A stretch of 64,000 bases of DNA. Origin: a virus. Position numbers and translations under genes: made by a program. Location of the stretch: IMG/VR virus record IMGVR_UViG_3300024243_000005, positions 1 to 64,000 of that record; one strand, 5' to 3'. The notes beneath the pieces were generated by a model. That model was not told where the DNA came from. It made no database searches and saw nothing but the letters and a program-made list of their open reading frames with translations. Positions 7,501-41,856 of this stretch are shown piece after piece. Position 1 is the stretch's first letter. Each line of letters opens with the position of its first letter.

Positions 7501-8341
7501 AACCAACCGTGTTGAGCGTCTTGACCAGGTCATGGGGACGCACGGTAGCAGCGACGAAGTGCGCGATGCTTTTCGCTCCGCTCTGTCCACGTCGTCCCCA
7601 GAGGAAATGTTGGTCAAGCAAATACGCGCGGCGGAATCGGGGGGCAATGAGGGACGCGCTGCTACTCTGCGCTCCAAGCTGAGCGACTACGTAGGTGACG
7701 AAGATAGAGTGGAGTCTCTCTTGAAGGGCTACACCGCTGCGGCCTACGAGGGGGAAGACAAGGCAACCCGTGTTGCGCTCTCACGCGCCTCTGGGGCGTC
7801 CGAGAAACATGAGGGAAACACAGGCATTCGCTTGGAGGTAGCCAAGAAGCAGCTTGACACAATTCGCGCCACGGACGCGATTGGTCTCGGAGCGTCCAAG
7901 CTCGCTGCTGACTACGGCATCTCATCGTTGAAGACAGGAAACGTAACAGACGCTGGGTTGACTTCTGCCATGGACAGCATCGCCAATTCCCCAGGACAAC
8001 TGGGTAAGCTCAAGAATATGAGCCAGTCGATGTACGCGGCAGTACAGGACAAGGACCTTGGGGCGTTTCGGCAGGGATTGAAAAACATCTCTAGCCGCTA
8101 CGGAAGTGAATTAACGCTCGGGGGAATGGGTACAGGAACCAAGGCAGAGGGGGACATCGCAGCAGCGCAAGGGCAGGTTGAGACGCTGCAGTCTGATGTC
8201 TTGGGAGGTAGCCAGGGGTTCGCTAACGCTGTGCCCGCCTTCGCTGCAGCGGTCAAGAAGCTCAACACAGTGGTTACGATGCAAGAACAACTCACGCGTG
8301 CGCAGTTGAACAGAGAAGCACGTCAAGGCGGAGGCAACTAA
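4556..8341 (+). CDS. Tape measure protein
   Basis: A 1261-residue protein immediately after the frameshifting chaperone, the usual place of the tape measure. It is rich in Gly, Ala and Met, with two hydrophobic glycine-rich stretches (about residues 200-270 and 760-790) typical of the membrane-active parts of tape measure proteins. The C-terminal half is mostly predicted helix. Known tape measures set tail length at roughly 0.15 nm per residue, which would give a tail near 190 nm; this is an inference. TAAGG lies 7 nt before the ATG. No lytic domain is visible. The next gene starts 2 nt after the stop. Confidence 0.8.
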   Translation: MSDDPTVTVREFVEGVNLMQSQMGLSQGSMATSGGLPQGLNTTAPYNLTIPKPHPVKAPGEFAQEVSHTARAQQSYADQFAQRIRHVQAQYLTPHQAQAYATSAGAASFTSLPSAAFQTDPSMGVFRPGFATPAPVGHPSSINPQYPTAQYVHPAFRPHMPTGFRDPLDMQSDWQNYDNQKNFASWTAGQVHSPGWGTTAVGGGIGGFMGLAAGAAGASYMPGMGRFGGVARGLTMAGGMAAGAWAGGAAAPGMTGGITRMGGAIMSPLVDTRAQGLALQNMSRGFVTSGNDLNPLTGQGLTTQSSVGLSNNLQRMVSNGETGGFNIQDMIKVAGLSADSGMLNMSQTGDQIATQVKSVAKALKSFMRIAQEPDIRSAMQELSQMRQFGLNLPESLTTAAETVRYARMAGTTPGNIQATAGLPGAMTYQQLGMTAGLGYRTGMAAGGIAQQAVNRGVFTPGQLAMSGGMRGVQQTLTEGAGAALGIDFQTLGLLSRGSEGQLSIDQGRVNDLMNGNVSLSDMAGMAASNVGRLSQGVGAENLFSEFSTRRNELRNELGSTLGPQGSQMLMIRAAQSLRQELGGNISIGAALQQIAPGMATNQIRSLELLATSPAYYESQYAGNERRIMGIRGAEAERLQRMQSGSEASNQLGRAFSGVGNAAWDAKSHFGDFWESASSLFSSTPMEEYAKSMGADYVRRPDELLIESSRESARLQEYVGSEEYGRYASSMGLPSGKTSMAGHLRPSGWTQAKSAAAGLLQVGGTLATFGGGAVAAAGMAATMGSGAINVSSNATKMRNSLGGVGAWLQPDWLINVDMGGESDYRRKKLANWHADAATAGAGLRDARGMSVTDSVAVTGKVREEYTRLAAKHGVTGDRDFRGAIVTGLRGVFEEHGSMFGDKAVSDSVLKEKAKAVVAQSTSPAFASEFIATMWDNGLRTSTLRELQDSTPEDSTAGGAISKTAQVTEGVLVAANYGDLTKVLTNRVERLDQVMGTHGSSDEVRDAFRSALSTSSPEEMLVKQIRAAESGGNEGRAATLRSKLSDYVGDEDRVESLLKGYTAAAYEGEDKATRVALSRASGASEKHEGNTGIRLEVAKKQLDTIRATDAIGLGASKLAADYGISSLKTGNVTDAGLTSAMDSIANSPGQLGKLKNMSQSMYAAVQDKDLGAFRQGLKNISSRYGSELTLGGMGTGTKAEGDIAAAQGQVETLQSDVLGGSQGFANAVPAFAAAVKKLNTVVTMQEQLTRAQLNREARQGGGN

Positions 8342-8343
8342 AC

Positions 8344-8562
8344 ATGTCTTACCCACCCCGGATTGATAGTGACGACACCGTCCGTGAGATGCTGGTACCC
8401 ACAGCACCCACCGTCTTGAATCTGGTGCACGACACCATCGTTACTGATCTTCGTCGAGGACACTCTGCGCGGGTAGAACTCCCGAGCCTCTATCGCTTGG
8501 CGCACATGATACACTACGGCACTAGCGAACTGGTGTATTCCAAGCAGTTGGAGAGGATGTAA
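8344..8562 (+). CDS. Small tail-operon protein, unknown
   Basis: A 72-residue, mildly charged protein with no motif I recognise. A ribosome site (GGAGGC) lies 8 nt before the ATG, inside the end of the tape measure gene. Its stop overlaps the next start as TAATG at 8560-8564, so the two are translated together. From its place between tape measure and baseplate genes it probably acts in tail assembly, but the sequence does not show how. Confidence 0.7.
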   Translation: MSYPPRIDSDDTVREMLVPTAPTVLNLVHDTIVTDLRRGHSARVELPSLYRLAHMIHYGTSELVYSKQLERM

Positions 8563-9512
8563 TGCCTAAGCCCAAGGTTGTACCTGGAGGTGAACTCCAT
8601 GTCATGAGTGGGGGGCGTCATCGTGGTCAGTTCTCAGGGTTTCCCGGAGCCACGCCCAAGTACGCCATCAACCGTGGAGCACGTGATGCAGAGAATCGCG
8701 AATCCATGGCGCGGCTATTCATCGAGATTCCGGAAAAAAAGCGTGCAGCGTTCATCAATAGCGTCCCCCACGCTAGTAGACCGCTCGCACGTGTACTTTG
8801 TGGTGGGCTTACAGGGCGGGCCACGGGGTTCATTGACTTCTTGATGACGGCAGCGCAAGAGGCGTTTTCCGAGAAGTATCAGGTGGTGGAGACGCTCAGC
8901 GATAACTTCATCGTGTACTTCTTCGGACAACGTGCCCCTACGTTTCAGTACAGCGGCACGCTGCTCAACACGTACCAGGATGATCAACGCGTGTGGATGA
9001 TGCGGCTCTACCAAGACATCCTCCGGGGAACACAGCTTGCACGCCGCAAGCTCCTCGTGCGCCTCCGGTATGACAGTGTCATCGTGACGGGCATGTTGAT
9101 TGCGCACGGGCAGGCTATTACGGGGGATGCCGTGGACCACGCATCGTTCAACTTCTCCATGATCCCTACCCACTACACCATCTTCTCTCCCAGCGTATGT
9201 GACCCAACACAACTGCGCACCGCTGCAACACCGGGGTCAGCGTACATGCTCCAGGAAACCACAGACGATGTGGACCCCCGCAGACTGCGGGTCGTTGCAA
9301 GTGCTAATCCACCCCAGCCAAGCAAGAAACCCGCTGCAGCACAGACGGCAACGAGCACGCCAGGTAAAAAACCAGTAACAAAAACAGCAGCACAAAAACT
9401 GAAGGATCGCGCGGACCAAAAGACGGAGAAGAAGACGCTCGACGCCGCAGTGTACGAACCTACCGCGACTGAGAAAATCTACAGTAGCGACACCATGGCG
9501 CTCATGCCGTAG
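8562..9512 (+). CDS. Probable tail/baseplate structural protein
   Basis: The 316-residue product has a folded region of about 220 residues with alternating beta segments (for example TFQYSGTLLNTYQDD and VIVTGMLIAHGQAI). A low-complexity Lys/Ala/Thr-rich linker (about 230-290) and a short tail follow. The pattern resembles a family of structural proteins found after tape measure genes in large myoviruses, where they join the tail tube to the baseplate hub; I recall the pattern but cannot name the family. It is coupled to the preceding gene by TAATG. Neighbours are all tail genes. Confidence 0.55.
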   Translation: MPKPKVVPGGELHVMSGGRHRGQFSGFPGATPKYAINRGARDAENRESMARLFIEIPEKKRAAFINSVPHASRPLARVLCGGLTGRATGFIDFLMTAAQEAFSEKYQVVETLSDNFIVYFFGQRAPTFQYSGTLLNTYQDDQRVWMMRLYQDILRGTQLARRKLLVRLRYDSVIVTGMLIAHGQAITGDAVDHASFNFSMIPTHYTIFSPSVCDPTQLRTAATPGSAYMLQETTDDVDPRRLRVVASANPPQPSKKPAAAQTATSTPGKKPVTKTAAQKLKDRADQKTEKKTLDAAVYEPTATEKIYSSDTMALMP

Positions 9513-32091: not shown

Positions 32092-33672
32092 TCAAGGGCT
32101 GAAGTACATCCCTCGTGTCACCATCAGTGCACTGTCCTCTTCGTCCGTTATGTTCATGAAGGGAAAACCCCTCCAATCCTTCAGGTAGCGAAAGAGATCG
32201 TCGAAGTCATAGATCCGGTGCTCGTCAGTCTCTTTCGTGGTCATCACAACAATTTCCACCGGCCCCGTATCGTGCCTCGACATCTCAACATGGTGCATTT
32301 CAGGTTGGCACACAGCGAAGCCACTCTTGTAGCTACACGTGTATGGCCTTCCGTGTATTAACGACGAGACGCACAACCACAGCGCGAACTTCGAGTGCAC
32401 CAACAGATCTTTGGTTGCCGGTGCTTGTGCCCACTCTGCATCCAACCTCCGCTGCATGTCAGCGGGGAGCCACGCATACAGTCGCCGGTAGCTGGAAAAC
32501 TTCAGTGCGTCCTCGTGGTACGCAGACACGCTGTCGCGGCGCACGTAGGCATTCAGAGGGAGTATCCCATCACCGTACAGCGACGCGGGGTTGCGCACTT
32601 GACTCAGCGTCCACCAGCACTGCCTGTTCGTCTCGGGATTTTGCTTTTTGAAAGACACCCCAGCGACCTGTGCAAAGCACCATATCTGGCGCAGCGTCCA
32701 TGAGGTGTGACACCTCTTCAAGATACCTTGCACGGTGCTCATTATGTAACGGGTAGCGTGTTCATCAGTCCAACGCTTATGCTTACATCCGCGCGACGCC
32801 CAGGGGGTACAGGGGGACCCAAATACGCCAGGTTTAACGACATACGCACTAAAGATGCAGTTACTGCATTCCTCCCGATGCATCTTTCGGGTTTCTGCCG
32901 CGCTGACCGCATTGGCACTGCGCGCTGCCCACGCTTCGTCAACACCAGTAAAGTCCGCGTGTACAGGCGTGATGAGACCCTTACCCGGCATATCGTGGTC
33001 CGGGGTAATGTACTTGGGAGGGATTGCAGTGTACCCAGCGATCTTTGTCTTCCAGTACCGAACGTCTTCACGCCATTCATCCGCGTCCAGTTCGGAATCG
33101 GTGTCTGAGAAATCAGTGCTGATGGGGACTGTAAACAACTCACGCTGAGCCGGAACTGCGATGGTGCGGATGTATTTACGCTGTAAATTGTTGTTGAAGC
33201 ACTCTGACGTTGACCGGATGGGGCACCCTTCACAGGCAGCAACAGCGTACAACTGCCTACAGTATTGCCGTATGTCGTCCCCTGCGGGGACACACCACAC
33301 AAAGTCTTTGCGAGCAAAATACATCGCAGCAATACGTAACTGGAGTACGTACGCCATGCTCGACCCAACAAACAGCTTGGTCACTTCAAGAGAGTCTTCG
33401 GATTCGGCGTTACCGTATCCGGCGCGACGTGCTCCGAATGTCGCACACGTGTACGCGAAGACCCCATCGGGAAAGTACTTGGTGATGTCTGGATGACGCA
33501 TCACTCGCGTTATCTCCGTTTCAGACCAGACTGCGTCTTCTCGGTGAAACACGAGACCGACCCCTATCCCTTCATGGGGGCGATGGTGTCTTGCGTATCG
33601 GGGTGGTCTATCGGTGCACAGCGTAACCATGAGAGGGGGTATGGGCCTCGACTTCAGGATGCTATCAGGCAT
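32092..33672 (-). CDS. Unknown protein with two four-Cys clusters, downstream of the reverse transcriptase
   Basis: I place the start at the ATG at 33672, which overlaps the stop of the RT gene by 8 bp, giving 526 residues. The frame is open upstream to 34062, but there it only shadows RT and encodes Ser/Arg-rich junk. No ribosome site is seen, so translation probably depends on ribosomes that finish RT. Two cysteine groups stand out: C128, C137, C140, C148 (including CEGCPIRSTSEC) and a second around residues 255-295 (CSNC with two more Cys after GVFGSP and SRG). They could hold zinc or iron-sulfur clusters. I recognise no enzyme family. Its fixed, coupled place next to RT suggests the two act together. 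Confidence 0.6.
   Translation of the reverse strand: MPDSILKSRPIPPLMVTLCTDRPPRYARHHRPHEGIGVGLVFHREDAVWSETEITRVMRHPDITKYFPDGVFAYTCATFGARRAGYGNAESEDSLEVTKLFVGSSMAYVLQLRIAAMYFARKDFVWCVPAGDDIRQYCRQLYAVAACEGCPIRSTSECFNNNLQRKYIRTIAVPAQRELFTVPISTDFSDTDSELDADEWREDVRYWKTKIAGYTAIPPKYITPDHDMPGKGLITPVHADFTGVDEAWAARSANAVSAAETRKMHREECSNCIFSAYVVKPGVFGSPCTPWASRGCKHKRWTDEHATRYIMSTVQGILKRCHTSWTLRQIWCFAQVAGVSFKKQNPETNRQCWWTLSQVRNPASLYGDGILPLNAYVRRDSVSAYHEDALKFSSYRRLYAWLPADMQRRLDAEWAQAPATKDLLVHSKFALWLCVSSLIHGRPYTCSYKSGFAVCQPEMHHVEMSRHDTGPVEIVVMTTKETDEHRIYDFDDLFRYLKDWRGFPFMNITDEEDSALMVTRGMYFSP
33175..33187. repeat. Palindromic site TTTAC-GCT-GTAAA, copy 3
   Basis: Exact copy of the TTTAC-N3-GTAAA palindrome, inside the coding sequence of the Cys-cluster protein next to the reverse transcriptase. 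Confidence 0.75.
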
Positions 33673-34753
33673 CCGGAGGACACTGTACTTGTATTGCACG
33701 ATCCAGTTGTCTGCGCAGGTTCGAAGCGCGCTTCGGGTTGATACCGTGGAAGTAGTTAATCTTCCCATCCAGGTGCGCGATGAACGACCCCACCAATGCG
33801 TCTTCCGCCTCCAACGCCATGTTGTCAGGGTCAAACCCGTAACGCACAGCGTTGACCGCGAAGCCGTGGTGGAGACAGTTGTGCAGGAGCGCACGGTAGC
33901 GCCTGTACTCATACTTCGGAATGTTGGGATGCACGTTGCAGACCATGCCCAACATACGCTGCTGCGCGGGCTGACGCTGCACTCTACGCTTCTTGCGGTG
34001 CTCTCGGTACTCACCACCCTGGACGAGCTTGACCACGGCGTCGATGATGTGCTGAATCTCATCCCGTGTTTTCTTGTCAGGGTGAGAGATGGTCAGGTCA
34101 TCAGCGTAACGTGTGTACACCCACCCAGACCCCTTCAAGAAATTCAGGACGGGAACGTCGATGGCCTCCTGCGCCATGAGGTTGCACAACGTAGGTGACG
34201 CAGGTGACCCCTGGGGGGTGTAGTGCCTCAAGCGGAGTTCCCCTTTCATCTTCGGAGAGGCGATGCGCTCCCCGACGGTACAGAGGTCCGCAATCATGCT
34301 GCACACGCGGTGGTCGTAGCCAAACGTACGCTTCAGGAAATTACGCACTCGTGCCCGGGAGTGCGAAGGGAAGAAGTCCTGAATGTCCAGCGCGATACGG
34401 ACGTAGTGCCCTGCATGGCGCTCAACGCTGTAACGACACCCGATACCGGGGCGGTACGCGCCAACGCTGTCACCCATGTGCTGGGTGCGTAGTAGAACGA
34501 AATCAATCTGCTTCTGTACGTACTTCAACCGCGCTTCGGGAGCGTGGATGATCCGCTTACCCCCAGACTTCTTGGGAATGCTAAACCGCTTATAGAGGTC
34601 TTGCTTCGTCGTAATGAGGTACCACAGTGTACGACATCGCACACCGAGGTGCATGGCCAGGGAGAAGTCATCAAGGACGTACGGCACGTTCTCCGGGGGT
34701 AGTGCCCCAGGGATCGGGATGATGTCGGCTGTTGTATCTTTGTAACTACTCAC
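33665..34753 (-). CDS. Retron-clade reverse transcriptase
   Basis: The 362-residue protein shows RT motifs in order. These are FSIPKKSGGKRIIHAP (57-72), GAYRPGIG (98-105), motif A IALDIQDFFPS (120-130), motif B TPQGSPASPTLCNL (179-192), the YADD catalytic box in YTRYADDLTIS (213-223) and a retron-type thumb segment with LGMVCNVHPNIPKYEYRRYR (268-287), where retrons usually have VTG. The end (HLDGKINYFHGINPKRASNL) is also typical of that clade. The GTG start at 34753 has a strong site (GAGGAGGAGG) and overlaps the stop of the upstream gene. It needs an RNA template, but no noncoding stretch exists within its operon. See findings. Confidence 0.93.
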   Translation of the reverse strand: MSSYKDTTADIIPIPGALPPENVPYVLDDFSLAMHLGVRCRTLWYLITTKQDLYKRFSIPKKSGGKRIIHAPEARLKYVQKQIDFVLLRTQHMGDSVGAYRPGIGCRYSVERHAGHYVRIALDIQDFFPSHSRARVRNFLKRTFGYDHRVCSMIADLCTVGERIASPKMKGELRLRHYTPQGSPASPTLCNLMAQEAIDVPVLNFLKGSGWVYTRYADDLTISHPDKKTRDEIQHIIDAVVKLVQGGEYREHRKKRRVQRQPAQQRMLGMVCNVHPNIPKYEYRRYRALLHNCLHHGFAVNAVRYGFDPDNMALEAEDALVGSFIAHLDGKINYFHGINPKRASNLRRQLDRAIQVQCPPDA

Positions 34754-35372
34754 TGGGCACCTCCTCCTCAGCAGGAGTGGTGATGTTCCCTGGCCGGATC
34801 ACCAGGTTGGTGTAGCACGCTGCGCTTCCGAGTTGACATTTACCCTGGAGGCGTAGCATGCCGCGAGGGCACGCACGGCAGATGGGGCGCACTGGACCTT
34901 TCGGAGAGAACAGAATGGTGTCAGGAGTGAACAGGTGTTCGAATGTGTTGGTATTCTCTTTGCCCTGGTGGCGCGTCGCGGTGATGTAAGCCGGAATCTT
35001 GTTTCCACGGGGCGCGTTATGTTTCTTACGCCGTTGCTCTAACCCCATTACTGGAATCACCAAGAAGTGATCCTGCGCATTCTGCAACACGCGATTTACG
35101 TTCGTTGACACTACGCGGTGTGGGCGCCCTGGATTAGGAAACCGTTCTGCGTATTGCACGGTGTCAATCAATTTCAGCAGAGTCTGGATCAGAGGTGTAA
35201 TGGTGAAGCAGAGTGACCAGGGAAACAACCGGGGTATCACACCCCCGTGTCCCACAGGGACTAAGTAGATGAGGTCGAAGGGGAACTTCTTCACAATCTT
35301 TTGGTCTACACGTACTTTGAGAATCTCGTCGGGAGTTATACGCGTCGGAGACGCATTACTGCGCGGGCACAT
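34746..35372 (-). CDS. Unknown protein with C-terminal Cys cluster, upstream of the reverse transcriptase
   Basis: The 208-residue protein overlaps the DUF2201 gene by 17 bp and RT by 8 bp. A four-Cys cluster (CRACPRGM, then GKCQLGSAAC) lies near the C-terminus after the words FSPKGPVRPI, and the rest is a mix of strands and helices. The cluster spacing resembles that of the conserved protein at 50616 (C-x2-C, then G..C and C), so the two may be distant relatives. The function is unknown; nucleic-acid binding is a fair guess. The place in front of RT makes it a candidate partner. Confidence 0.6.
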   Translation of the reverse strand: MCPRSNASPTRITPDEILKVRVDQKIVKKFPFDLIYLVPVGHGGVIPRLFPWSLCFTITPLIQTLLKLIDTVQYAERFPNPGRPHRVVSTNVNRVLQNAQDHFLVIPVMGLEQRRKKHNAPRGNKIPAYITATRHQGKENTNTFEHLFTPDTILFSPKGPVRPICRACPRGMLRLQGKCQLGSAACYTNLVIRPGNITTPAEEEVPSE

Positions 35373-36717
35373 TTTCCATCGGGAGGTGAAGGCCGTATCC
35401 CGGGGATGGCATCTTGCCCCCCGGAGTTATGAGCCACACCACAGGAATCGGGACACGCACCTCGGGCTTCGGCTCGGGTGCGTACCCGTCCGTGGCGTAC
35501 ACCAGGACATCAGGTTTTTGCATACTGGTTTTCAACAGCTCCTTGGTCTTGACGAACACGGGGTCAAAATCAGTACCACCCCGTCCCACCATATCGAAGT
35601 CGATATCACTCACCGACTCCGCCGGTTTTACATACGCTACCTTTGAATCGCACTGCATGACCCAGATGTACACATCGCTCTCGCTGGTAGCCAGGGACAG
35701 CAGCTCTTCCATGGCCAACTTCAGGTCGTCGTGGGACATGGACCCACTGGTATCGATGGCGAAGACGATGGTGAACTTGTTGTCGTACTTCTTCCCAGGG
35801 TAGGGCAGGATATCGTCTATCTCGTGCAGCCTCCGATTAGGGCGCTGCATCCCGCGTGCGGACTTACGCTGTTTGGTACGGATGCACATCCTGCGCAGTA
35901 GCACAGGCCAGGGGATCACTGGCGGCTTCAGGAATGCCTCGATGCGCTCCTTCAGATAAGCAGGTGTGACACCACGCGCCTTCTCGTGCTGCGCCAGCGC
36001 CTTCTCCACGGTATCGCGTGCTTGGTGTCGCAGCTCTTCTGCCATGGACACCAGCTCTTCGGACGTTCTGCCCTTGATGAATTTGCGCCAGTGCGCGTGG
36101 GGGTCCCCACCTCGGCTATCCGTGAACTGGTCACGGAGTTCTTGCTCCGATCCACACCCACCACCTTCACTTCCACCTCCGCCTCCGCTCCGCTGGTCCA
36201 ACTGCTGCAGCAGACCAAACTGATACACCTCGTAGGGTTGAGCGCGTGGCATCTTGTACGTCTCAGGAGTCAGGAACAGGCGCCCGTCTGTCTTATCGGA
36301 CCCAAAGAACCAGTCCTTGTACTTGTCATCGAAGCCTGGCTCCAGGCGCATGACTTCATTGGTGGCGAGATCCGCAGCGATGTTCTGCACCGCCTTGAAC
36401 CGCGCTTTCTCTTTCTTCGTGCGCAGCGTACTCATCAACTCCACGCACCGGGGAATGTGGTCGTTCAGGATGTGAATCAGTTCATGTGTGAAAGTGAGCA
36501 GCAACTCCTGCAGAGGCATCTTCGAGACCATATCTTCGTCGTAGAAGAGGCACATACGCCCCTCTTTGCTGACACCCACACCCATGGTACCGAAACCAGG
36601 GACGTTGACACGGTGCAGCGCTTCAATGACGCTCGCGGCCAAACTGCGGAACTGCGGCTGTAGCCAGTACATAATAACATCACCCAGACGTTGTCCATCT
36701 GCGTCCGGGAGTGGCAT
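35356..36717 (-). CDS. DUF2201-type putative metallopeptidase with VWA domain
   Basis: The 453-residue protein has an N-terminal helical domain with the zinc motif HELIH (78-82) and a Gly-rich break (about 190). A C-terminal von Willebrand A-like domain includes the metal site IDTSGSMS (around 320-330) and GRGGTDFDP. This is the domain order of DUF2201 proteins, which are usually paired with a MoxR-type ATPase; such an ATPase is encoded at 38429. The pair is thought to remodel or activate target complexes. The ATG at 36717 was chosen with GAGGTG about 10 nt upstream; a TTG at 36723 is also possible. It heads the operon that contains the reverse transcriptase. Confidence 0.85.
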   Translation of the reverse strand: MPLPDADGQRLGDVIMYWLQPQFRSLAASVIEALHRVNVPGFGTMGVGVSKEGRMCLFYDEDMVSKMPLQELLLTFTHELIHILNDHIPRCVELMSTLRTKKEKARFKAVQNIAADLATNEVMRLEPGFDDKYKDWFFGSDKTDGRLFLTPETYKMPRAQPYEVYQFGLLQQLDQRSGGGGGSEGGGCGSEQELRDQFTDSRGGDPHAHWRKFIKGRTSEELVSMAEELRHQARDTVEKALAQHEKARGVTPAYLKERIEAFLKPPVIPWPVLLRRMCIRTKQRKSARGMQRPNRRLHEIDDILPYPGKKYDNKFTIVFAIDTSGSMSHDDLKLAMEELLSLATSESDVYIWVMQCDSKVAYVKPAESVSDIDFDMVGRGGTDFDPVFVKTKELLKTSMQKPDVLVYATDGYAPEPKPEVRVPIPVVWLITPGGKMPSPGYGLHLPMENVPAQ

Positions 36718-36788
36718 ACTCAAGGTTCACCTCTTGTGGTTTGAGGGTTGTTTGCTTACAATATAGTAACTTTTCCGGGAGAGTAGCA
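36718..36788. promoter_or_regulatory. Divergent control region upstream of DUF2201/RT operon and of 36789 gene
   Basis: A 71-bp gap between divergent genes. On the plus strand TTGAGG (36741-36746) and TATAGT (36762-36767) form a weak promoter with a 15-bp spacer, and CGGGAGAG is the ribosome site. A promoter for the minus-strand RT operon must also lie here or inside the neighbour but could not be pinned. Confidence 0.4.
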
Positions 36789-37803: not shown

Positions 37804-38469
37804 ATGACCTTTGCACAGGCACTGCAGAGCGCAGCCCGGCGACGACGTACTGTTGCCCCGGGGACCGAAGCAGCCACACTCCAAGACCCCGAAGCACCAG
37901 CCACCGCCTGCTTTGAGGCTGTACAAGCCCTGCTCGGGAAGGCGAGCCTCAACTGGGAGCCAGAATCCCTGTGGCTGACGCTGGAGAGGGAGCACAGCGT
38001 TGACGTGCCTCTACCCAACCGGGCGAAGATCCTCGCAGCCAATACCCTGGTACTTGTGCCTGCCTTCTGGTGGGAGGTACACGCCTTCATGCACACCATC
38101 TCAGCGTTCAGCGGACACGTCACAGATAGTCGCGAAATCTTCGAAGCAACACCCGGAGAGCTGGCCTGGGGCGTCTTTGAGGCAGAGCTGCTGTTTCAAC
38201 AGTCCTCCGACATCCAAGCACAGCCAGAGTTCGACCGCGAACCCACGCTGTACGTCGCACAGCTACTCCACGACCAGGGATTCAGTGAAACACCCGTGCT
38301 TCTCGACTTCGCACAACCAGCATTGAACGCCCTCGTCCGAAGCAACAAACCCAACGAGGGCGTCCAAAAGGCCAAGCGCCAAGGGGTACAGGAGTACGTC
38401 CTAGAACAGCTACGTGTGTACCAGCTCTTTACGTCGCCAGCGCATCCGGGCTTCCCGCCGACTGCTTGA
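37804..38469 (+). CDS. Unknown protein
   Basis: A 221-residue, mainly helical protein (FEAVQALLGKASLNW, WWEVHAFMHTISAF and others) that starts 4 nt after the previous gene. It runs 41 bp past the end of the convergent MoxR-type gene, so both coding ends overlap tail to tail. No motif was recognised. It shares an operon with the FAWP-motif protein and may work with it. Confidence 0.6.
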   Translation: MTFAQALQSAARRRRTVAPGTEAATLQDPEAPATACFEAVQALLGKASLNWEPESLWLTLEREHSVDVPLPNRAKILAANTLVLVPAFWWEVHAFMHTISAFSGHVTDSREIFEATPGELAWGVFEAELLFQQSSDIQAQPEFDREPTLYVAQLLHDQGFSETPVLLDFAQPALNALVRSNKPNEGVQKAKRQGVQEYVLEQLRVYQLFTSPAHPGFPPTA

Positions 38470-39847
38470 TGCGCGCCTGCGCTTCCGCAATCTTGGTGAA
38501 CAGCCGCTCGAAGGACTTCTCCGTGCTCAACGCCTGACTGATGCTGTAGATGTAGTCGTTGCTCTTCCCACCAATCTCCTCCGCCGCTGCCGTTAGTTTG
38601 GACACGATGAAGGACACCGCTGCGTCAGACGGGAGGTCCCCCATGAAGCGACCCAGGTTGCCCTTCACCTTCTGCGGGTCAGGGTTGGAGGTCATGAGTT
38701 CCACTGCCACGCCGGTGCACACCTCACTGATGACGTCGCTGCGCCCTTCCTCCAGCATGGCCAACACCTTCTTGCGGGCACGCCCCTTGGTGCTGTACTC
38801 GTACACGATCTCACTGGGAGTGATGAGGCTCGCCTTGTTCTTGACGAACTCCAAGAAGCGCACAGCGGGGGTGCGCCCAATGAGACCTTGCATGGTGGTG
38901 GAGAGCGCTCGGTTAGCGTGAATGTCTTCACGCAGCTTGTCAGCAGTCTTGCACAGGTCGCTCACCGCTTCCCAACCTGCCGGGGAGGGGTACTGCTTAC
39001 CTGCGTCACGAAGAGCCGAGTCGTGCAGCTCCTTGCCCGAGGATTTGATGTACTCAACAACCAGGGGGTGGAAGTCGCCCTCACCCTGTGCGTAATTGAC
39101 CCAGGAAGCGGCGTTGATGTTCACGGGGAGGAAGCAGATGCGGCGGCGAAACGCCGGGTCACGCTCAGGCTCAGAGACGGAGTACGCAGCGCCGCTGGGG
39201 TTCATCGCGCACACCACCTGGATGCCCTCGGGGATGGTGTAGGAGTGGATGCGCCGATCGCCGAGCAGGGTGAAGAACACCTTGATGACTCCCATGTCAG
39301 CGCGATTCCACTCGTCGAAGAAGAGGAGACCCTCGGGTGGCAAGTTCAGGAGATCGTTCTGCAGCAGGAACTCGAAGGCACCCTCATCCTTTGTGCCCAA
39401 CGTCCGGATGTGTTCCATAGTCAGAGCGATTTGTACCTCTGCCTCTGCGACGTTGTCAGCAGCCTCGGTACCGTTGCCCTGCGCGAGGTAGTAGTTCTTC
39501 ACGTCCATCCAACGCGTAACCTGCTCAAGCAGGCGTGCCCTACGCGCAGACGCTGGAGCGGGAATGGCCACATCCTCGGGCTGCAAGTGCTGCAAGTTCT
39601 TCTCAATGCACGGGACTGATGTTTCCCACAGCTTTCCGTTCCAGTGGAAAGGCTCCGCTGGCACGCGACTCTCTGCGACCTGCCTGCAGATGTCCGTCTT
39701 ACCCATTCCGGAGGTACCAGTGAGGCAGCAAACGCTGCGGTGGTTGTACCTGTTCACCTCGATGACTTCACGCGCAGTGGTCAATCCAACTGCGGGGACA
39801 CCCATCTTCTGGTGAAACTGATCTTCACGAACTTCTCGGTCAGCCAT
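38429..39847 (-). CDS. MoxR-type AAA+ ATPase
   Basis: The 472-residue protein has Walker A (TGTSGMGKT, 43-51), Walker B (LLFFDEW, 174-180, followed by NRAD), a sensor-like segment IQVVCAMNPSG and an arginine region PERDPAFRRRICFL. This pattern is that of MoxR/RavA-like AAA+ ATPases. These act with VWA-domain proteins to remodel complexes, and a DUF2201/VWA protein is encoded at 35356. AGAGGAAGAGG lies upstream of the ATG. In the phage it may act on virion or host complexes; its substrate is unknown. Two unrelated plus-strand genes separate it from its presumed partner. Confidence 0.85.
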   Translation of the reverse strand: MADREVREDQFHQKMGVPAVGLTTAREVIEVNRYNHRSVCCLTGTSGMGKTDICRQVAESRVPAEPFHWNGKLWETSVPCIEKNLQHLQPEDVAIPAPASARRARLLEQVTRWMDVKNYYLAQGNGTEAADNVAEAEVQIALTMEHIRTLGTKDEGAFEFLLQNDLLNLPPEGLLFFDEWNRADMGVIKVFFTLLGDRRIHSYTIPEGIQVVCAMNPSGAAYSVSEPERDPAFRRRICFLPVNINAASWVNYAQGEGDFHPLVVEYIKSSGKELHDSALRDAGKQYPSPAGWEAVSDLCKTADKLREDIHANRALSTTMQGLIGRTPAVRFLEFVKNKASLITPSEIVYEYSTKGRARKKVLAMLEEGRSDVISEVCTGVAVELMTSNPDPQKVKGNLGRFMGDLPSDAAVSFIVSKLTAAAEEIGGKSNDYIYSISQALSTEKSFERLFTKIAEAQARIKQSAGSPDALAT

Positions 39848-40308: not shown

Positions 40309-41856
40309 GTGCAATTTCCTCCACGACTGCGCTCTGAACTAGCGCAGAAATTACTGTACCTGGACGGGGAGCCCTTCACGCTCCAGGACTATCCGTTCTT
40401 CCGTGCCGTGTACGACGGGAACTTTTCTGAGGTCCTCCTCAAATGTGCACGACAGGTAGCTAAGACCACCACTCTCTGCAACTTCATCATTAGCGAGAGT
40501 CTCGGCATCCCCCACTTCAAAAGCCTTTACCTCTCCCCGAGTCAGGAACAAACGCAGTCGTTTTCCAATACCCGTCTCGGGAAGGTGGTGCACTACTCCC
40601 CCATCGTGCGTAGATACTTCTCAGTCTCCGACTTCACGCACCGCACCATGCTTCGTATGTTTCGTAACGGATCCGAGGTGAAGCTCACCTACGCCACTGA
40701 TAACCCCGATCGTGCACGCGGCAACTCGGCTGACCGGGTGCTGTACGATGAGGTACAGGACATCCTCTACCGCGAGGTCATCCCTGTTGTGAATGAGTGC
40801 ATGGCGAACTCGTCATACCAGTGTGAGATATACGCGGGCACACCCAAGACGATGGAAAACACCATCGAATACCTGTGGAGCCTCTCCACGCAGTCGGAGT
40901 GGATCATACAGTGCACAGGGTGTGGCAAGCACCAATTCATTGAGGGGGTGCGCTCGCTAGGAAAACACGGACCCATCTGTTTGCACTGTGGAAAAGGGCT
41001 CAACCCGCGCCTGGGCCAGTGGTACGACTTCAATAAAGAATCGACCATGAAAGGCTTCCACGTCTCCCAGCCCATGCTCCCACTGAACTGCGAGAACCCT
41101 CATCGCTGGGGCAAGCTGCTGACCAAGGTAGAGCGTTATCCTGAATCACGCCTCAAGAATGAGGTGTTCGGTGTCTCCGACGCAATCGGCGCACGCCTGA
41201 TTAGCAAAGACGAACTGGAGAGTCTGTGTGAAAACTACGACATCTTCCGCACACCACCCCCTACAGCCCAGGAACAATTCTCCCATGTTGTAGCGGGGGT
41301 CGACTGGTCCGGCGGCGGTGTAACAGGGGTCAGCCGCACTGTCCTTTGGATCTTCGGCGTTACCAAGGACCACCGACTCAAGACCCTCTACTTTCGGATT
41401 TACCCCGTAACCAGCCCGGTCACCATCGTGGACGACATGGTAGAGGTGATGAACAACTACCAGGTGGAGCGCGTTGTAGGCGACCGGGGAGAGGGGCACC
41501 TGGGCAACGACCAGCTCCGACACAAGATGGGGAAACACCGTGTTACCGAGGTACAGTACGGAGCACAAGCGAGCGCCATCTCGTGGAACGACTTGGGCAG
41601 CTTCTACACCGTGGACCGCACCATTGTAATGGACAATTACTTCATGGTACTGAAGAGGGGGGCTGTTGTGTACCCCAACCTCTCATACATGACAGTGCCC
41701 ATCCAAGACATCCTGAACCTCTACGAAGAGGTCACAAAGGTGGGCCGCAAGGTGTGGCGACACGCGCCTACACAACCTGACGACTCCTACCACGCACAGC
41801 TATTCGCCTGGCTTGCTGCAAAGATGATTCTGATGGACCTGTCGTTCAACGGATAA
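40309..41856 (+). CDS. terL: Terminase large subunit
   Basis: The 515-residue protein has the packaging ATPase and nuclease parts. Walker A is KCARQVAKTT (45-54), Walker B RVLYDEVQD (143-151). A four-Cys zinc ribbon (C202, C205, C224, C227) lies between the domains, and the RNase H-like nuclease shows GVDWSGGG, VGDRGEG and PDDSYHAQ. It cuts and pumps phage DNA into the prohead. The zinc ribbon is rare but known in some large terminases. The GTG start is the first in-frame start after the promoter; no ribosome site is seen, so the message is probably leaderless. No small terminase subunit is recognised nearby. The portal gene is 18 kb away. Confidence 0.92.
   Translation: MQFPPRLRSELAQKLLYLDGEPFTLQDYPFFRAVYDGNFSEVLLKCARQVAKTTTLCNFIISESLGIPHFKSLYLSPSQEQTQSFSNTRLGKVVHYSPIVRRYFSVSDFTHRTMLRMFRNGSEVKLTYATDNPDRARGNSADRVLYDEVQDILYREVIPVVNECMANSSYQCEIYAGTPKTMENTIEYLWSLSTQSEWIIQCTGCGKHQFIEGVRSLGKHGPICLHCGKGLNPRLGQWYDFNKESTMKGFHVSQPMLPLNCENPHRWGKLLTKVERYPESRLKNEVFGVSDAIGARLISKDELESLCENYDIFRTPPPTAQEQFSHVVAGVDWSGGGVTGVSRTVLWIFGVTKDHRLKTLYFRIYPVTSPVTIVDDMVEVMNNYQVERVVGDRGEGHLGNDQLRHKMGKHRVTEVQYGAQASAISWNDLGSFYTVDRTIVMDNYFMVLKRGAVVYPNLSYMTVPIQDILNLYEEVTKVGRKVWRHAPTQPDDSYHAQLFAWLAAKMILMDLSFNG
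41399..41411. repeat. Near match to the palindromic site (one base off)
   Basis: TTTAC-CCC-GTAAC inside terL differs from TTTAC-N3-GTAAA at the last base (bases about 41399-41411). Similar one-off copies lie at 9788 and 18316. They may be weak sites or chance. Confidence 0.35.

Follow-up and report, generated by a model that had tools for sequence, protein, structure and literature searches.

An eight-cysteine candidate partner of a retron-branch reverse transcriptase, kept with it in one lineage of large phages

What is a protein of no known family, encoded by a gene that begins inside that of a phage reverse transcriptase (RT), likely to do for this enzyme? Introns aside, most bacterial RTs characterised so far either act in bacterial immunity or depend on a dedicated RNA. 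For the locus described here, an original prediction had named the protein in question, P0001, as the best candidate for an effector or priming partner of the RT. The locus lies in a window of 64,000 nucleotides (the whole stretch of DNA that was analysed), which is part of a 180,179-bp IMG/VR virus record. The window contains genes for a terminase, PolA, primase, helicase, RNR, RuvC, ParB and an endolysin, which identifies its source as a large tailed phage.

P0001, a 526 amino acid long protein of a new family, is encoded on the minus strand (33672..32092), from an ATG at 33672 to a stop at 32092, with the position and length originally predicted. Its gene overlaps the RT gene by 8 nt (33665-33672, ATGCCTGA), such that the end of the RT gene falls inside P0001, and no Shine-Dalgarno sequence was found in the 22 nt 5' of the ATG (ATACAAGTACAGTGTCCTCCGG); both the overlap and the lack of a ribosome site at this start had been foreseen. 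By contrast, the GTG start of the RT is preceded by a strong Shine-Dalgarno sequence (GAGGAGGAG). The P0001 frame stays open upstream of its ATG, giving a mechanical ORF of 656 amino acids, but this extension merely reflects the RT gene under which it runs. A start at 33672 agrees with the relatives L251-L253, in which the shared 'VxTxC' block is preceded by 11-19 residues. An alignment of 35 relatives delimits two cysteine clusters in P0001, both on the minus strand: cluster 1 (residues 138-158, C-x8-C-x2-C-x7-C, 33199..33261) with cysteines 138, 147, 150 and 158, and cluster 2 (residues 269-296, C-x2-C-x15-C-x7-C, 32785..32868) with cysteines 269, 272, 288 and 296. The original prediction had recognised two four-cysteine groups correctly but had placed them at 128-148 and 255-295, which is off by about 10 residues.

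P0001 used alone as the query matched nothing in Pfam, PHROGs, PADLOC, NCBIfam, GenBank phages or IMG/VR, and its match in the PDB did not rise above chance. The protein thus belongs to no known family as judged from these libraries, and the profile match to an ordinary family that would have spoken against the proposed partnership was sought and not found. Relatives were reached via the terminase: phage G001, whose TerL is 51% identical, carries an RT that is 43% identical and has the same neighbours as in the window, i.e., a VWA protein, a Cys4 protein of about 210 amino acids, the RT and a 469 amino acid long Cys protein. BLASTP between P0001 and this G001 homologue was not significant, and their global alignment scored z 4-6 over shuffles. 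G001 also contains a ribonucleotide reductase gene (L010:1427-5569) with two long intein-like insertions that include Hint- and LAGLIDADG-like stretches. A scan with an RT pair led to a set of large-phage contigs that share this gene order, and profiles were built from 17 P0001-like proteins and 17 proteins resembling P0003, the upstream Cys4 protein; an alignment of the whole family proved too divergent as a scan query and was dropped. About 35 relatives of P0001 are now at hand, all from metagenomic contigs of large uncultured phages and every one encoded immediately downstream of an RT from one and the same clade. The weak BLASTP comparison with G001 is answered by proteins outside the P0001 profile: L181, which had been held out, was recovered with 3.6e-26 at precisely the expected site downstream of its RT, and L251-L253, the nearest relatives of the window, matched at 1e-29 to 5e-32. 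A profile search found neither the P0001 nor the P0003 family near 80 cellular RTs or near the other phage RTs, and the P0001 family was not found in ten further phage records with an RT, each searched whole. Against 50,697 GenBank phages, tblastn of P0001 and of its relative L308 was empty, and no cultured phage carrying this partner protein was found in this set.

Although column identity averages 18%, all eight cysteines of P0001 are kept in 33 of the 35 relatives; six are invariant (35/35) and two more are each present in 34/35 aligned members. Cysteine conservation at this level of divergence, together with a low dN/dS, indicates that the clusters are more than chance. Besides Met1 and the six cysteines, the alignment of the 35 members holds no invariant column and no residue of catalytic type, which argues for a metal-held scaffold rather than a conserved enzyme and makes an enzymatic effector, one form of the role originally proposed, unlikely. 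P0001 is a previously undescribed eight-cysteine protein, and an adaptor is the more likely role than an enzyme. The predicted structure of P0001 itself is poor (pLDDT 58.6), and a fold search with this low-confidence model (best Z 3.5) was disregarded. A better model was obtained for L308 (pLDDT 90.4, pTM 0.79), which is about 16% identical to P0001. With this model, the best PDB hit of a fold search reached an unconvincing Z of 3.7, and Foldseek against the PDB and BFVD returned nothing at E ≤ 0.001, the best match being to PURA repeats (E 0.02, rmsd 15.8). On the basis of the L308 model, the fold of the family appears unmatched in the PDB and BFVD; we do not claim a new fold. Weak Tudor-like matches recurred on the C-terminal half but are not claimed. 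Several further readings were rejected, including an internal duplication of this half (hhalign probability 1%), a shared origin of the two clusters (3-13%) and a DDE transposase (PF13751, match confined to the Cys motif). Two family members matched two different PADLOC models at 0.001-0.003, which is not credible.

The original prediction had overlooked a second Cys protein and the loss of retron motifs from the RT. The former, P0003 (208 amino acids; 34746..35372, minus strand), overlaps the RT by 8 nt on its other side and carries a Cys4 motif, C-x2-CP-x10-C-x6-C (34815..34880, minus strand), whose cysteines are invariant in 17 aligned members. P0003, RT and P0001 form a trio within a conserved block with TerL (terminase large subunit; 40309..41856, plus strand), PolA and a MoxR-like AAA+ ATPase (38429..39847, minus strand), the latter being the probable partner of the nearby VWA/DUF2201 protein (35356..36723, minus strand). 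The frames of RT and P0001 overlap in 28/28 loci, the gap between P0003 and RT has a median of -4 nt, and the end of P0001 lies at most 9 nt from the next ORF in 24/25 loci.

TerL provided an independent anchor for a census of the trio, in which contigs were collected by a terminase alignment scan and hence not picked by their RT. Among the 80 best terminase matches, 32 contigs extended 9 kb or more upstream of TerL and were retained, near-duplicates included (L277/L278, L282/L283, L295/L297, L301/L303, L314/L316). Two 210-kb phage contigs, L037 and L039, contain 3 and 5 in-frame TGA codons in the main piece of their terminase matches; as far as these sequences go, this suggests TGA recoding in both phages. 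All three genes were present in 27 of the 32 contigs and all three were absent in five; a partial trio was not found in this set unless the contig ended there. The VWA gene was present in 32/32 contigs, always near the trio where a trio exists. The three distinct trio-less phages (L274, L277 and L282) form one clade in the TerL tree (100/100), so that one gain or one loss suffices. In L274 the VWA gene adjoins a tail-type gene, leaving an empty site, and L277 and L282 have other genes there. A gene of about 390 amino acids at this site in trio-less phages is DUF932-like by eye (L277:3967-5145, L282:4231-5382). Since the VWA gene is kept where the trio is missing, it counts as a neighbour, and the three genes alone make up the unit; since these phages lack the whole trio, the lineage can do without it. 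The nearest cultured terminases, at 30-31%, are those of Salmonella phage Arash and Vibrio phage D181, and the 15 kb inspected in either phage contained no VWA, RT or partner gene.

P0001 is the fastest-evolving of five genes compared. In phage pairs with TerL about 87% identical, the RTs are 65-78% and the P0001 proteins 30-46% identical. Across 374 pairs, the identity of P0001 tracks that of TerL (rho 0.61) and RT (rho 0.57), and these correlations together with the larger divergence show that P0001 is co-inherited and fast-evolving. Close pairs have a P0001 dN/dS of 0.09-0.22, and the value reaches 0.43 for L028-L031. The fast divergence could reflect relaxed constraint instead of an arms race. 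No effector swap was found within the family, across RTs down to about 30% identity. This constancy, the all-or-nothing census and the overlapping frames uphold the partner half of the original prediction.

The RT, P0002 (362 amino acids; 33665..34753, minus strand), matches Pfam RVT_1 at 2e-16 and PADLOC RT_XIII at 4e-66. Motif A with the catalytic Asp (DIQDFF, 34370..34387) and the active-site motif YADD (34097..34108) are encoded on the same strand, and the active site (D-x2-[DNE]-FF and YxDD) is intact in every member checked. A profile of this RT reaches 7e-41 against retron Ec86, compared with 6e-5 for Drt2, 1e-4 for DRT1 and 6e-4 for AbiK, and by these sequence comparisons the RT is placed on the retron branch. 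No DRT or Abi model was matched over its full length, NCBIfam Drt2 scoring 28.8 bits (cut-off 390) and Drt3a 16.8 (200). GenBank phage RTs matching the window RT are at most 30% identical, and the RTs of the P0001-linked family form one clade (SH-aLRT 98). Retron RTs are characterised by NAxxH in region X and VTG opening region Y (PMC6868368). NAxxH is present in 0/20 family RTs versus 65/77 cellular RTs from the same search, and VTG likewise in 0/20 (all xLG) versus 71/77 cellular RTs with xTG; in the window, LGM replaces the triplet (33944..33952, minus strand). An Rfam search gave no match, an inverted-repeat search nothing useful, and in a z-score scan of the operon the top RNA signal (z -4.4) fell within the VWA gene at its 3' end (35401-35550, minus strand), away from the RT. 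Because genes overlap or abut on both sides of the RT, an adjacent msr-msd would have no space; an RNA embedded in coding sequence or distant in the genome could still serve the enzyme.

Three observations concern related or other phage RTs. In the outgroup phage L035, a related RT with xLG instead of VTG (7926-9059) adjoins the terminase with neither Cys protein nearby, which shows that such an RT can exist alone. Ten RTs of one sub-clade (L020, L021, L023, L026, L028-L031, L181 and L183) have a zinc-finger-like CxxC...HxCP insertion just before motif A, without counterpart in the window RT. In two phages, an RNase HI-like ORF (YTDGGCSGN) directly follows another RT (L057:9129-9632, L065:9062-9562), a possible RT-RNase H pair separate from the trio.

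The module could be a phage-borne defence of the retron type, in which P0001 would be a toxic effector, kept in check by the RT and a cryptic ncRNA until infection by a rival phage sets it free. The retron-branch RT, the retron-like layout with a downstream gene and the fast divergence of P0001 agree with such a role, and PMC9122126 describes anti-phage genes borne by temperate phages and satellites. However, both retron motifs are missing throughout the family, the gene overlaps exclude an adjacent msr-msd and no Rfam match exists, effectors are not swapped, the single gain or loss is unlike the variable hotspots that harbour defence genes, and P0001 has neither a conserved catalytic residue nor a credible PADLOC match. 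We therefore consider this explanation unlikely.

Improbable, too, and somewhat more so, is a core helper of replication or repair, in which the trio, alongside PolA, primase and RNR of the phage, would make or extend primers or cDNA for its genome. Vertical inheritance in a block with TerL, MoxR and PolA would fit this role, but the whole trio can be lost, the rate of P0001 is unusual for a replication subunit, and no primase or polymerase-accessory match was found. The constant presence of the VWA gene might even suggest that P0001 adjoins the RT incidentally and belongs with the MoxR-VWA machinery or the tail-type neighbours. This is very unlikely, because the RT-less L274 keeps the VWA and tail-type genes without P0001 and P0003 and because the RT and P0001 frames overlap at every locus, and it had already been weakened by the census. 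A diversity-generating retroelement (DGR) or other template-repeat system, to which the tail-type genes beside the RT might point, has almost no likelihood for an RT of the retron branch and is contradicted by a scan of 17 kb (25-42 kb) for template/variable pairs of at least 30 nt, which found none save one 31-nt chance pair.

The reading that we prefer, with a probability of about one half, is that P0001 is a dedicated metal-binding partner of a retron-derived RT in a vertically inherited phage module with a role in takeover, counter-defence or exclusion. The partnership is well supported, and we infer the function. In this module of P0003 (Cys4), RT and P0001 (Cys8), kept by one large-phage lineage, the three proteins would be produced together from their overlapping genes and probably form one complex. 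The RT would copy RNA from elsewhere than an adjacent msr-msd, while P0001 would fold around two four-cysteine sites, presumably metal-filled, with zinc or Fe-S as the originally suggested candidates, and bind nucleic acid or a host or target factor for the complex, without itself cutting. Its fast divergence beside the slower RT suggests that P0001 faces host or rival factors, and the module would accordingly act during infection, in takeover, counter-defence or exclusion, more probably than in housekeeping replication.

A broader proposal, which we put forward tentatively and at slightly less than even odds, is that this phage RT machine falls outside the retrons, DGRs, DRT/Abi systems and group II derivatives: its retron-branch RT would have lost msr recognition and been rebuilt around two dedicated Cys-cluster proteins, one with a fold unmatched in the PDB and BFVD, and the whole would be kept by vertical descent. 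In this phage lineage, a retron-branch RT that lacks both retron motifs and is accompanied by two new protein partners has become stably established. Such a system could reveal how phages use reverse transcription and whether an RT can exchange its RNA cofactor for protein partners, and the eight-cysteine family and the L308 model offer a direct handle for experiments.

Among known systems, cluster 2 shares C-x2-C-x5-C type spacing with the Cys motifs of WhiB and IS transposases (PF13751), but the PF13751 match spans only about 37 residues around the cysteines, lies below the Pfam cut-off and concerns 3/35 members. With the defence-associated RTs DRT2, DRT1 and AbiK, the module shares detectable RT sequence kinship and possibly an RT-based anti-host or anti-phage biology; in contrast to them, its RT profile similarity is weak (at best 6e-5, against 7e-41 for Ec86) and its partners are unmatched. 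The retrons (Ec86/Eco1 and relatives) have in common with it the RT fold and sequence branch, intact catalytic motifs and an RT-linked accessory protein, and PADLOC RT_XIII is the best-scoring model for the window RT. Unlike retrons, the module has no NAxxH, no VTG and no adjacent msr-msd space, and the lost motifs, the missing RNA space, the lack of effector swaps and the vertical history together argue against an ordinary retron. Two Cys-cluster partners take the place of a known effector, and the module is fixed and vertical in one phage lineage.
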